Assembly (NCBI RefSeq): GCF_000829035.1
Contig: NZ_AP012541.1
Span: forward strand, 1,612,001-1,676,000
DNA from: Lacticaseibacillus paracasei subsp. paracasei
GTDB taxonomy: Bacteria > Bacillota > Bacilli > Lactobacillales > Lactobacillaceae
Direction of reading: 5' to 3'
Length of the DNA stretch: 64,000 nt
This document shows positions 4,379-52,526 of the stretch, one piece after another. Position 1 is the stretch's first letter. Every line of letters begins with the position of its first letter. Made by a program: the position numbers and the translations under genes. Below the pieces are notes generated by a model. That model was not told where the DNA came from. It saw only the letters and a program-made list of their open reading frames with translations, and ran no database searches.

Positions 4379-4486
4379 GAGCTCGTGAACGGCTTGGGTC
4401 ATAAGTTTAGAAGTACCTATCAGAGGCTGGCTATCACTTCTAAGCAGCTGACACGCCATTGCTAAACCGGACGCATTCACGCGCTC
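4379..4486. repeat. Diverged member of the dispersed long-hairpin family
   Basis: An imperfect palindrome between rnc and the oppA terminator. The outer arms are GAGCTCGTGAA and TTCACGCGCTC, and an inner pair is TTTAGAAGT with ACTTCTAA. The outer CGTGAA/TTCACG arms and the TTTAGAA word resemble the full copies at 16594, 17263, 39213 and 51476, but the inner sequence is different and the fit is poor in places. On the plus strand it is followed by a run of seven T. Membership in the family is an inference. A TATAAT at 4505-4510 on the minus strand could be the rnc -10 box, but no good -35 was found. Confidence 0.5.
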
Positions 4487-10421: not shown

Positions 10422-10837
10422 GCGAACTCCTCCTTTGCGTCCTCGACGCAAGATTAAAACAAGATGAGATTTTTGAAATAATTGTCTCTAAGTATAAAGA
10501 AATTATAGCGGTTATGCAAGCGAAAAATGCGTTCTAAAGCTGTTTTGCCATGTCAAAAGCGAAAATTTGATGGCATCATTTTGGGCCCTGGTCGCCGAAA
10601 TTTAGCGAACTGTGGGCGCTCAATGAGTTCGTAGCAGCGAATATTTCGAAAAGAATAATCTTTTGATGTGTCGAACGTTGCAACTTCTTATCTGTGGCCA
10701 ACATCTTCGGTTCGCTGAAAGACAAACGCCATCCCCAAGGCCTTATCCGTCAGCGTCTCAGGGACAGTGCCCAAGTGCGCTCATCACGCTCCAGATCAAG
10801 GTCTATTACACGATGGTTTCTAGCCAAGCAAACTCTT
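10422..10837. other. Intergenic region upstream of the opp operon
   Basis: No credible gene was found in these 416 bases. On the minus strand a TATAAT at 10502-10507 could be the opp -10 box, but no convincing -35 lies 16-18 bases upstream. A partial arm of the long-hairpin repeat family lies at 10796-10825. The plus-strand open frame from 10694 has no ribosome-binding site and runs through the acpP terminator, so it is not taken as a gene. Confidence 0.5.
10796..10825. repeat. Solitary right arm of the long-hairpin repeat family
   Basis: The 30 bases from 10796 (TCAAGGTCTATTACACGATG, then GTTTCTAGCC) match the right arm of the full copy at 16594-16705 (CCAAGGTCCTTACACGTAGG, then TTTCTGGGCC) nearly base for base. 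The matching left arm is not present upstream, so this looks like a decayed or truncated element. Confidence 0.55.
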
Positions 10838-16501: not shown

Positions 16502-17004
16502 GCTGTTTCCTCCTAAGCCATTCGCGATGATTTTCACATCGCGTACAATTCTACCAGCTAGTTTAGCATAGCTAAGCGATGACTGCGAGCAGAGCGTGAA
16601 TCAGCCCGATTAGAAACCGAAGTGTAAGCGGCCTTGGTTGTGATGGCCGGTTTTTGGCCATTGCATCCAAGGTCCTTACACGTAGGTTTCTGGGCCTGTT
16701 CACGCGTTTCCGAACCTCCAAGCTCACAAATACCTAAATTTTGATCACTTAAACCTGAGGTGCCTATGTGTCAGTTTCTGGTCTTGTCGCTACCTTTATG
16801 AGACAATCGTTAACAGTAACATTTTTCAAAGAATATCGGACTATTTGTACTTACCCACCCAATTTTCTTAGAGTCTGATCACGCGTTTATTTTGACCTGT
16901 CAAGTAATTTTACTTTGCAAAAATTCTTGCATTAACCGCGGGCCTATGATAAGTTAGTTGAGTGAAAAATTCGAGGGTGACCTTGAAAAAAAGGAGGTCA
17001 TATT
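16502..17004. other. Intergenic region between yloU and rpmB
   Basis: It holds a small inverted repeat just upstream of yloU (GCGATG with CATCGC), the long hairpin at 16594-16705, and the rpmB promoter region. For rpmB a TATGAT lies at about 16946-16951, but no good -35 is placed at the right distance. No gene of its own is seen. Confidence 0.5.
16594..16705. repeat. Long imperfect hairpin, full copy A
   Basis: A 112-base self-complementary element. From outside in, the paired arms are GCGTGAATCAG with CTGTTCACGC, AGAAACC with GGTTTCT, GTGTAAG with CTTACAC, CCTTGG with CCAAGG, and ATGGCC with GGCCAT around a short loop. It shares TTAGAAACCG...TAAGCGGCC and CTTA...GGTTTCTG with the copies at 17263, 39213 and 51476. 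Confidence 0.85.
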
Positions 17005-17190
17005 GTGGCTAAAGATATTATTACTGGTCGTCATACCACGTTTGGCAACAAGCGTTCTCACGCTTTGAATTCAAGCCGGCGCCAATGGAAAGCCAACCTG
17101 CACAAGGTTCGTATCCTTGTCGATGGTAAACCAAAGCGGGTATGGGTTTCTGCACGTGCCCTTAAATCAGGTAAACTGACCCGGGTTTGA
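17005..17190 (+). CDS. rpmB: Large ribosomal subunit protein bL28
   Basis: A basic protein of 61 residues, beginning [21 protein letters not shown], the standard bL28 N-terminus. It has no zinc-binding cysteines, so it is the C-minus form. The start is GTG preceded by AAAAGGAGG. It is transcribed alone on the plus strand, opposite to its neighbours, and ends at a strong terminator. Copies of the long-hairpin repeat lie on both sides of it. Confidence 0.97.
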
Positions 17191-17203
17191 TCCCATAACA
17201 TTT

Positions 17204-17255
17204 AAAAAGGTCCTGACAATGAATGTGATGCATCCTTCATTGTCAGGACCTTTTT
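17204..17255 (+). terminator. Rho-independent terminator of rpmB
   Basis: A perfect 15-bp stem (GGTCCTGACAATGAA with TTCATTGTCAGGACC) is followed by seven T and preceded by five A, so it could work in both directions. It begins 13 bases after the rpmB stop. Confidence 0.93.
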
Positions 17256-17262
17256 TTGTTGA

Positions 17263-17374
17263 GCGCGAGCAGGAGCGATTAGAAACCGGAGCGTAAGTGG
17301 CCTTGGGTGTGGTGACCGACTTTTGGCCATTACGCCCAAGGTCCTTACGAGTAAGTTTCTGCGACTGCGAGCGC
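17263..17374. repeat. Long imperfect hairpin, full copy B
   Basis: It starts eight bases after the rpmB terminator. Paired arms include GCGC/GCGC, GCAG/CTGC, AGAAAC/GTTTCT, CGTAAG/CTTACG and CCTTGGG/CCCAAGG. The left half reads GCAGGAGCGATTAGAAACCG, then GAGCGTAAG, close to the copy at 39213. Confidence 0.85.
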
Positions 17375-17384
17375 GTTATGACAA

Positions 17385-17424
17385 AACGCGAGCAGGAGTG
17401 CCTAGAAACCGGAACGTACGCGGA
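17385..17424. repeat. Solitary left arm of the long-hairpin family (B')
   Basis: ACGCGAGCAGGAGTGCCTAG followed by AAACCGGAACGTACGCGG repeats the left arm of copy B eleven bases after that copy ends, without a right arm. The next 208 bases up to thiN contain nothing recognisable. Confidence 0.6.
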
Positions 17425-17632
17425 TTTTAAGCGGTTGGCCTAATATCCCTCATACAATCGGTGATTCGTTGGACGCCAACTAATTTGGGAAAACCTTGGG
17501 CTAAAATTTCCTTGCCATGCCAAACGCCGCAATCTCCGGCCAGTTGGGACTGGTACGCACTTTTTCAGGATCTTGATATGCTGACTTCTCAGATCGGTAG
17601 TTCATTAAAGCAAATCAGGAAGAAAACAATGC

Positions 17633-39205: not shown

Positions 39206-39212
39206 CAGCAGA

Positions 39213-39326
39213 GCGTGAGCAGGCGCGGTTAGAAACCGGAGCATAAGCGGCCTCAAGCCTAATTGGCTGGGCTTTGGTCAATTAGGCTTGGGGCCCTTAT
39301 GTGCAGGTTTCTGCACCTGCGAACGC
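39213..39326. repeat. Long imperfect hairpin, full copy C
   Basis: The best-paired copy. Arms from outside in: GCG/CGC, GCAGG/CCTGC, AGAAACC/GGTTTCT, GCATAAG/CTTATG, and a perfect inner stem CCTCAAGCCTAATTG/CAATTAGGCTTGGGG around a loop of about 13 bases. It lies between pepQ and the efp promoter. Confidence 0.9.
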
Positions 39327-39388
39327 GTTTTAGCCAAAAATCAATAAGCTAACCGATTTGACTCACAAGTCAGCTTCTGGCACGTAAC

Positions 39389-41680: not shown

Positions 41681-41787
41681 GCGCGTAGATTCGTGCGTTT
41701 AGAAACCGGTATGTCACAAACCGTGCTGCTTTTTAAACATGCCACCTTCAAGACTCTCATATGTGTGCTTCTGGGCTAGCGAACGCG
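41681..41787. repeat. Degenerate copy of the long-hairpin family (D)
   Basis: It keeps the family words GCGTTTAGAAACCGG on the left and CTTCTGGGC...GCGAACGCG on the right, but inner pairing is poor. It lies just upstream of the rplU promoter. Confidence 0.65.
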
Positions 41788-51453: not shown

Positions 51454-51475
51454 GATACTTTTCTCCTTTAAGTGA

Positions 51476-51596
51476 GCGCGAACAGGCGCGTTTAGAAATC
51501 GGCGCATAGATGGGCGTCAACCAGATTTGCTCGAAACTGAACCTAGCCAATCTGGTTGACGGCCTTCATATCCAAATTGATACGACTGTATTCGCG
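51476..51596. repeat. Long imperfect hairpin, full copy E
   Basis: It starts GCGCGAACAGGCGCGTTTAG followed by AAATCGGCGCAT, as in the other copies, and has a perfect 13-bp inner stem CGTCAACCAGATT/AATCTGGTTGACG unlike theirs. The right outer arm (TTCGCG) is weaker. It ends exactly at the miaA stop and lies 22 bases before ynbB. Confidence 0.85.
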
Positions 51597-52526
51597 TTAA
51601 CGTTGTTTAAGCCACTGTTGCACCAACGTAACAATGGCATTTTTGTCTTCCGGATGCGCGACCAGATCAAACCAATGGGTCGGCATCTGATTGCGAAAAT
51701 AGGTCAGCTGCCGTTTAGCAAAATGCCGGGAATGTTGCTTAATCAGTGCAACACAATTCGCCAATTCAGCCTGACCGTGAAGATATGGCACTAGCTCTTT
51801 GTAGCCGATAGCCTGCATGGCCTGTGCATCTGCTGGCACGGTTTTTAATAGCTGCTCAACTTCAGCGAGTAACCCGGCCTGCATCATCGCATCCACCCGT
51901 GCATTAATTCGATCATACAAAACGGTTCGGTCCGTGGTTAAGCCAATGACCAAGGTCGAGAACAACGGCTCTGGTTGTGGCTGGTCAGAAAAGCGCCGTC
52001 CGGTTAATTCACCGACTTCTAAGGCACGAATCACCCGCCGCGTATTGGCCGGCGCAATTTGTTGCGCAGCATCTGGGTCGCGCTGTGCCAATTGCTGCCA
52101 CAACCATGATTGACCGTTTGTTGCTAGCGCCACCTGCCAGCGCTGCCGAATAGCTGTCGGCGGCGCCTTCCCGCCTAAAGGCAGATTTAAGCGCAAACTA
52201 TTAAGATAAAAACCGGTACCGCCTACCAGAATCGGTAATTGTTGCCGATCAGCCACCGTATCAATCATGGCCGTCGCTGCCTTTTTAAACTTGGCGACCG
52301 AGTATGCGACGGTAGGGTCAGCGATATCCAATAAATGGTGTGGCACCCCTTGCATCTCTTTTGGCGTGATTTTCGCCGTTCCAATGTCCATGTGGCGATA
52401 AATCTGATAGGCGTCGCCGTTAATCACTTCACCGTGTAGCTGCTGGGCTAAATAAACGCCGAGGTCACTTTTTCCAACAGCTGTCGGTCCGACAATCATG
52501 ACAATCCGTTTGGCTGGTTTATCCAT
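51597..52526 (-). CDS. miaA: tRNA dimethylallyltransferase MiaA
   Basis: A protein of 309 residues. It adds the isopentenyl group to A37 of tRNAs reading UNN codons. P-loop GPTAVGKSDLG, then NGDAYQIYRHMDIGTAK, LVGGTGFYLNSL, and the conserved GYKELVPYL and Q-rich KRQLTYFRNQ segment. Its short C-terminus lacks a zinc finger, as usual in bacteria. The start has GGAGC upstream; its promoter region overlaps that of the divergent small gene. Confidence 0.95.
   Translation of the reverse strand: MDKPAKRIVMIVGPTAVGKSDLGVYLAQQLHGEVINGDAYQIYRHMDIGTAKITPKEMQGVPHHLLDIADPTVAYSVAKFKKAATAMIDTVADRQQLPILVGGTGFYLNSLRLNLPLGGKAPPTAIRQRWQVALATNGQSWLWQQLAQRDPDAAQQIAPANTRRVIRALEVGELTGRRFSDQPQPEPLFSTLVIGLTTDRTVLYDRINARVDAMMQAGLLAEVEQLLKTVPADAQAMQAIGYKELVPYLHGQAELANCVALIKQHSRHFAKRQLTYFRNQMPTHWFDLVAHPEDKNAIVTLVQQWLKQR

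Follow-up and report, generated by a model that had tools for sequence, protein, structure and literature searches.

A dispersed family of 116-nt palindromic repeats in Lacticaseibacillus paracasei, with a fold conserved above its sequence

REP elements spread as folded single strands. Together with BIMEs, they are intergenic palindromes of high copy number that are often clustered, as described in the accessible parts of PMC3733652 and PMC2817692. Closest in kind to the repeat presented herein, as compared by description only, is MRSC-65-2, a single long stem with strong covariation that often occurs in dozens of copies per genome in diverse phyla and has been called a mobile or repeat sequence candidate of which the DNA form may matter (PMC11109978, accessible part). 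By reading, however, the UYCCGG of MRSC-65-2 is absent from the consensus of 33 copies of the present repeat, and neither Lactobacillus nor Lacticaseibacillus is mentioned in the accessible text of that paper. MITEs and the pneumococcal RUP, BOX and SPRITE elements are, like the repeat, short non-coding sequences of low-GC Gram-positive bacteria with no gene of their own (accessible part of PMC3049150, otherwise general knowledge), whereas the shape of the repeat is constant and its sequence free across genera, and no clear target duplication was seen at the junctions read. Several differences also separate the repeat from REP and BIME sequences. REPs of the GTAG/CGTC type are 20-40 nt long, whereas the repeat is 116 nt long and has no GTAG/CGTC foot; REPs go with a RAYT, whereas the cognate Y1 enzyme is absent from the genome studied; and BIMEs alternate in orientation, whereas the units of the repeat arrays all run head to tail. 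In other words, the repeat behaves like REP/BIME and MITE sequences, yet fails the tested definitions of REP and BIME. As far as general knowledge goes, the attC sites of integrons share with the repeat a folded strand, conserved bulges and variable paired arms, but no core boxes were noticed at the ends of the repeat and its tandem units carry no cassettes. Intrinsic terminators are likewise GC-rich intergenic hairpins, whereas no T-run follows the hairpin of the repeat as a rule, and T-runs precede many copies of one class (the T-class, see below). An extended stem-loop with similarity to other database entries, probably this family, was reportedly noted in a study of L. rhamnosus pepX. That study was not found in our literature search, and the open-access papers searched contained no description of the family, of which an earlier description is possible. 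In the accessible parts of PMC2267715, PMC3733652, PMC8040213 and PMC11109978, the sole lactobacillus is L. johnsonii, in one table.

The window analysed in the present study is the whole stretch of 64,000 nt at positions 1612001-1676000 of the 3.02-Mb genome. A sequence-only reading had recognised therein four good copies of a palindrome family, two diverged copies and two solitary arms. All four good copies were recovered by the covariance model on the forward strand (Table 1), with fold energies, including 15 nt of flank, of -73.6, -68.4, -77.5 and -51.5 kcal/mol in order of position. The arm at 17385-17424 was likewise recovered, as a left-arm fragment, whereas the arm at 10796-10825 was absent from the profile matches up to E 1e-3. 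Neither of the two supposed diverged copies was matched by the covariance model up to E 0.1 in the window, yet an exact word is retained in one and the other is extra sequence, with 0-13 nt at the corresponding place in four of four relatives; at best, both are decayed relatives of the repeat. The neighbours of the copy at 39211-39328 are genes for elongation factor P and an M24 peptidase, both on the reverse strand, and those of the copy at 51474-51597 are genes for an IPP-transferase and a PLP enzyme (Pfam). The view that all copies are intergenic was too strong, as 23 of 136 sites in the genome were flagged for an overlap of more than 40 nt with a crude ORF. With Rfam 15, a tRNA and an L21 leader alone were above threshold over the window, nothing was found around 39211-39328 up to E 1, and loci L237 and L253 gave no match. 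As a separate observation, a 370-nt segment between two repeat copies (16887-17259) is inverted relative to four relatives and is 94-96% identical to them, compared with 66-84% for other aligned blocks. This segment, for which the Rfam matches were sub-threshold only, may be an undescribed non-coding RNA that was flipped by recombination between the palindromes.

Table 1. Coordinates of the repeat copies, of parts of the copy at 39211-39328 and of the rRNA-spacer copies (window positions unless a locus is named)
Feature	Position	Strand	Remark
Full-length copy	16592-16707	+	Covariance model, 116.2 bits
Full-length copy directly after a T-run	17261-17376	+	Covariance model, 109.7 bits
Solitary left arm trailing the copy 17261-17376	17387-17441	+	Profile match, E 1.8e-5
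Full-length copy	39211-39328	+	Covariance model, 117.4 bits, model positions 1-116
Foot stem, 5' side	39213-39216	+	Pairs with 39323-39326 (consensus structure)
Unpaired GA after the foot stem	39217-39218	+	Consensus structure
Unpaired 4-nt bulge G-N-T-T, 5' side	39227-39230	+	Conserved across 44 loci
Stem 3, AGAAACC pairing with GGTTTCT	39231-39237	+	Conserved in own genome; varied yet paired in other genera
Apical hairpin (copy-specific inner arms)	39249-39295	+	Tips swapped as blocks in related genomes
Full-length copy, clearly decayed	51474-51597	+	Covariance model, 48 bits
Possible decayed copy	4379-4486	+	Extra sequence compared with four relatives
Possible decayed copy	41681-41787	+	Exact word TTAGAAACCGG at 41699
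rRNA-spacer copies	L019:1483-1598, L031:1483-1598, L182:1601-1716		23S-5S spacer of three rRNA operons

The window copies belong to a large family. The query copy (39213-39326) gave at least 61 BLAST matches in its own genome (40 of 168 candidates scored). A covariance model was built from an alignment of 33 copies, and the search with such a model, which the sequence-only reading had suggested, returned many copies: all 150 scored candidates (of 1486) matched the whole model, the lowest at 67.3 bits, so that at least 150 full-length copies are present. Across the genome stretches that were fetched, 136 sites account for 176 non-overlapping model matches, which include fragments. This repeat family is not chance. 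Arrays of 2 or 3 units were observed at 27 of 119 sites; all 31 adjacent pairs run head to tail in the same direction, at 116-127 nt (mostly 121-127 nt) from start to start. Left-arm fragments lie 3' of copies at 20 of 132 sites, compared with 4 of 132 on the 5' side. Some copies are decayed: of the 174 in which more than 30 pairs were scored, 91 have over 95% of them paired and 3 have less than 80%. The tip of one further copy (L026:1485-2651) is interrupted by a segment of approximately 1 kb with a transposase gene of the integrase-core type (rve in Pfam), which we take to be IS30-like.

Within the genus, the repeat was found in 26 of 30 genomes including its own, with at least 123 copies in five genomes and none in four. 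With the covariance model, it was detected in 80 of 301 genomes and 22 of 40 genera of the family and, at E 1e-6, in 27 of 395 genomes and 9 of 80 genera of the order, the own genome being included in both, and a phylum sample of 397 genomes gave no match outside the own genome at E 1e-6; as 9-12 candidates were scored per genome in these scans, the counts are floors and the absences are weak. A pattern scan with 24 specified bases over named genomes matched at least 120 stretches, and among the 80 matches listed were Lacticaseibacillus, Secundilactobacillus, Levilactobacillus, Lactobacillus sp., Trichococcus and Sedimentibacter sp. SX930. The same fold architecture was observed in these stretches, and the Trichococcus copies stand in tandem at 122-124 nt. 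The repeat is also carried by plasmids of Lactiplantibacillus, Lacticaseibacillus, Lactococcus, Pediococcus and Limosilactobacillus (21 records). Carriage by phages was considered as well, and no match was found among phage records.

The unit is a long hairpin of 116 nt with fixed geometry, represented in the model by 116 positions and 45 pairs. Reading from 5' to 3', GA is followed by a foot stem of 4 bp (GCGT/ACGC), an unpaired GA on both sides, a stem of 8 bp, the bulge GNTT (4 nt, present on the 5' side only), a stem of 7 bp (AGAAACC/GGTTTCT in the own genome), a 3x3 loop of GGA against GCA, a stem with TAAG/CTTA at its end, a 1-nt bulge and the long tip, and GT closes the unit. Among the 1482 cells of the 33-copy alignment, 96.0% hold standard pairs, compared with 86.7% after shuffling, and 177 cells have changed on both sides, compared with 61.4, with 0 of 500 shuffles as high; slid structures on the same alignment gave 12-19 two-sided cells. 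Because the 33 copies of one genome are related, the test between genera is stronger. The cross-genus set comprised the best rows of 44 of the 51 searched loci, one per locus, after four casei-group rows and three near-duplicates had been dropped. The stems of these loci are mostly unrelated, and 94.8% of pair cells are paired, compared with 56.8% in 500 shuffles (maximum 60.2%), in an alignment that was fitted to the model, which favours pairing. Model-free folds of single sequences gave the same architecture in the loci shown. Two-sided change was observed in 42 of 45 pairs, with 148 further pair types, and the shuffles reach 42 and 149, so the paired percentage is the telling measure. These results agree with the sequence-only reading that the fold is conserved above the sequence, and neither a lack of inner-arm covariation among orthologous copies nor an absence of copies elsewhere in the genome, the two outcomes named there as contrary to a structured family, was found. 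The inner arms had also been described as unrelated from copy to copy, which is true of the stems between genera, whereas within the genome many copies share few tip types: a crude sorting of 166 copies gave 97 of type B, 28 of type A and 41 unsorted.

The unpaired parts of the hairpin are conserved as well. The GA/GA loop, the GNTT bulge and the 3x3 loop are unpaired in most of the 44 loci, and thus neither arm is simply templated by the other. In the GA loop, G and A are kept in 42 and 32 of the 44 loci on the 5' side and in 37 and 39 on the 3' side; the two T of the bulge are kept in 39 and 36, and the G that opens the bulge, the C-G pair preceding it and one foot pair are present in all 44. 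Wobble cells are biased in one direction, with 102 G-U against 14 A-C in the 44 loci and 676 against 169 in the 176 own copies (230 against 159 without five wobble-rich pairs), ratios that may be inflated because the rows were oriented by the model; pair 28 alone is G-U in 149 of the 173 copies with letters at this place. The excess of G-U over A-C cells indicates that the fold of one strand is kept, and this bias fits RNA and single-stranded DNA alike. A copy has a direction, since scores of 77-134 bits are typical of full copies, compared with approximately 25-68 bits for the opposite strand of the same places where listed. Of 176 copies, 37 are preceded by T (T-class), 127 by A (A-class) and 12 by another base. 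The second base after the unit is A in 25 of 25 T-class copies that are last in an array and T in 97% of the 77 A-class copies in that position, and TTTT lies within 12 nt upstream of 20 of 30 first-in-array T-class copies, compared with 19 of 96 in the A-class. The 5' flanks end in GT (90% of the T-class) or A before GAGCG, and the 3' flank logos begin with TTA or TT and are then purine-rich.

Dynamic changes among the copies were observed when regions syntenic with the window were compared in four relatives (G005, G006, G019 and G028). The site of the 51474 copy is a gap of 3-4 nt in all four, and the site of the 39211 copy is 17 nt long in three of them, whereas G019 has 203 nt there that the model does not match; elsewhere, shared copies, solo left arms or deletions were observed. 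At one orthologous site, the number of units is 2 versus 3. Several apparent empty sites are deletions or retain a solo arm, while others look clean and may reflect either gain or loss; no clear target-site duplication was seen at the junctions read, which may or may not be virgin sites. Over 200 kb and the window region, G005 and G028, with flanks approximately 95% identical, provided 17 copy comparisons. Identity was 95-100% in eight of them, 69-85% in seven and 90.7% in another, and the last involved a truncated copy. At least 5 of the 17 are exchanges with another family member: the whole unit was exchanged in two, the tip in one (near-identical flanks and outer arms, with a tip of another type) and a single arm in two (once together with the tip), leaving mismatched arms. 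Exchange alone can therefore produce inner arms that are copy-specific but still paired. Such paired change had suggested selection of the fold in the sequence-only reading; the conserved shape speaks for it, whereas the origin of the change at each site has become less clear through these exchanges. Similarly, two L. paracasei plasmid records and one Pediococcus record carry two different members of the family at the same place with near-identical flanks, and an L. plantarum plasmid record shows a deletion between the ends. In several plasmids of lactic-acid bacteria (L315, L317, L318 and L319), the repeat occupies a common position immediately upstream of a gene for a multicopper oxidase, which is annotated as such in L315 and L317, and other plasmids are without a repeat there.

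Herein, we propose that the repeat is a dispersed, mobile-type palindromic family whose folded single strand propagates, a proposal to which we give roughly an even chance. It is based on the fold, the strand bias, the copy number, the arrays, the turnover, the plasmid carriage and some decayed copies. First, the folded single strand, either RNA or single-stranded DNA, would be recognised upon copying by an enzyme, which would be encoded outside the repeat. Lineages would keep the shape because badly folded copies would leave few descendants. After insertion, units might be gained or lost by recombination between left arms, and copies might be converted by other copies or decay, while some pairing constraint in place may remain; the effects on neighbouring genes would be secondary. 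Among possible partner enzymes, the Y1 (RAYT-type) transposase PF01797 gave 0 matches in the own genome, with a positive E. coli control. Both PF01797 and the reverse transcriptase PF00078 are absent from the own genome (G000), G005 and G019 and present in G006 and G028, each of these five genomes having at least 123 copies. Neither enzyme is therefore needed for a high copy number, and both were rejected as the partner. Copies differ in position between species and are exchanged between sites, but their movement is putative, as neither a clear virgin target nor a clear target duplication was found; this result, the absences of PF01797 and PF00078, the pair-keeping changes described below and the non-random placement of the copies argue against the mobile-repeat proposal. 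The further suggestion of a new kind of selfish element, of shape only, appears doubtful: a fold of approximately 116 nt, of which the geometry and unpaired nucleotides, above the sequence, would be read by an enzyme encoded elsewhere, would copy itself in the form of folded RNA or single-stranded DNA, form head-to-tail arrays and swap tips, and would have spread through Lactobacillaceae and sporadically to Trichococcus and Sedimentibacter.

Alternatively, the hairpin might be transcribed and act in place in an mRNA or an rRNA precursor, as a site for RNase III or another nuclease, as an mRNA stabiliser or as a barrier separating the translation of neighbouring genes. We consider this a real possibility, if a somewhat unlikely one. 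The conserved fold of one strand, with its wobbles, would be expected of such an RNA, and the near-identical orthologous copies point in the same direction. In the eight comparisons at 95-100% identity, one-sided changes keep the pair in 8 of 9 cases and break it in 1, with 1 gap and 0 two-sided changes, whereas random placement of the same substitutions would keep 4.76 of 9 (P 0.018); when the 90.7% comparison, which is a partial one-arm exchange, is counted too, 11 are kept and 5 broken. These few data weakly favour some pairing constraint after insertion, and the pair-keeping changes lower our confidence in the mobile-repeat proposal and raise it in a role in place. Stop codons are present in all three frames of the first 46 nt (e.g. 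39211-39256) in 87 of 166 copies, approximately nine times more than the 9.9 expected by single-base shuffling, which favours a role in the transcript. A coding frame in the left arm was dropped as a candidate; by reading of the 44-locus alignment, codons seem not to hold across genera. With respect to gene context, copies avoid convergent spacers according to two of three counts, the divergent to convergent ratio being 24:4 with copies and 26:28 without for crude ORFs (p 0.0009), 21:4 and 17:20 for longer ORFs (p 0.003), and 14:6 and 19:21 for closed ORFs only (p 0.17). At 74 co-directional sites, copies are sense in 47 cases and antisense in 27, a preference that favours a transcribed function, although the 27 antisense copies are difficult to reconcile with it. 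Moreover, no clear closeness to gene starts was observed, as 45 of 98 copies lie within 35 nt of a start compared with 39.3 expected under uniform placement. Targeting of Shine-Dalgarno sequences or gene starts was rejected for the same reason: although a ribosome-binding site is often in contact with the flanks, nearly as many contacts are predicted by uniform placement in the short spacers. The absence of a counterpart of the 39211 and 51474 copies in the four relatives and the two exchanges that leave mismatched arms also argue against a function in place.

The 23S-5S rRNA spacer is the best place to look for a role at the RNA level. Three identical copies lie in such spacers, 4 nt past the end of the 23S model, and a copy is found at the same place in L. 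zeae (L227) and in G005. Between the three copies and that of L. zeae, six pairs differ and none is broken: four are changed on both sides and remain paired, including a foot pair far from the tip, one mismatch is restored and one wobble has become a Watson-Crick pair. This pattern supports a function in place. In G005, however, a copy with nearly the same tip is located just after the T-run of the operon, approximately 350 nt downstream, and the tip changes may thus be due to exchange; in G019, a short hairpin remnant is all that is left of the rRNA-spacer copy.

Two further explanations fit the data less well than the mobile-repeat proposal. A role in DNA architecture, in which gyrase, a nucleoid protein or a recombination protein binds the cruciform or hairpin (a role proposed for BIMEs), would accommodate many copies dispersed on both strands, with no replichore bias seen among those of the own genome, and a protein could recognise the conserved bulge and loops. 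It is nevertheless very improbable, since the wobble bias of one strand is unexpected for a double-stranded site or a symmetric cruciform, and the repeat is dispensable, given that some species of the genus have no copies and others have 123 or more. Similarly improbable is the absence of any selection, with one arm copying the other through gene conversion or through template switching during replication. Long palindromes readily undergo arm copying and tips are exchanged between copies, but such copying would erase the GA/GA loop, the 3x3 loop and the asymmetric bulge GNTT, which stay unpaired in most of the 44 loci with unrelated stems, and would not favour G-U over A-C.

Thus, a single genome contains at least 150 copies of a structured repeat without an Rfam family. 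If it is the shape that spreads, the repeat would offer a natural system in which to study the multiplication of non-coding palindromes that lack their own transposase. Moreover, strong hairpins lie next to many genes and within rRNA operons, which matters for the reading of RNA-seq data and for strain engineering.
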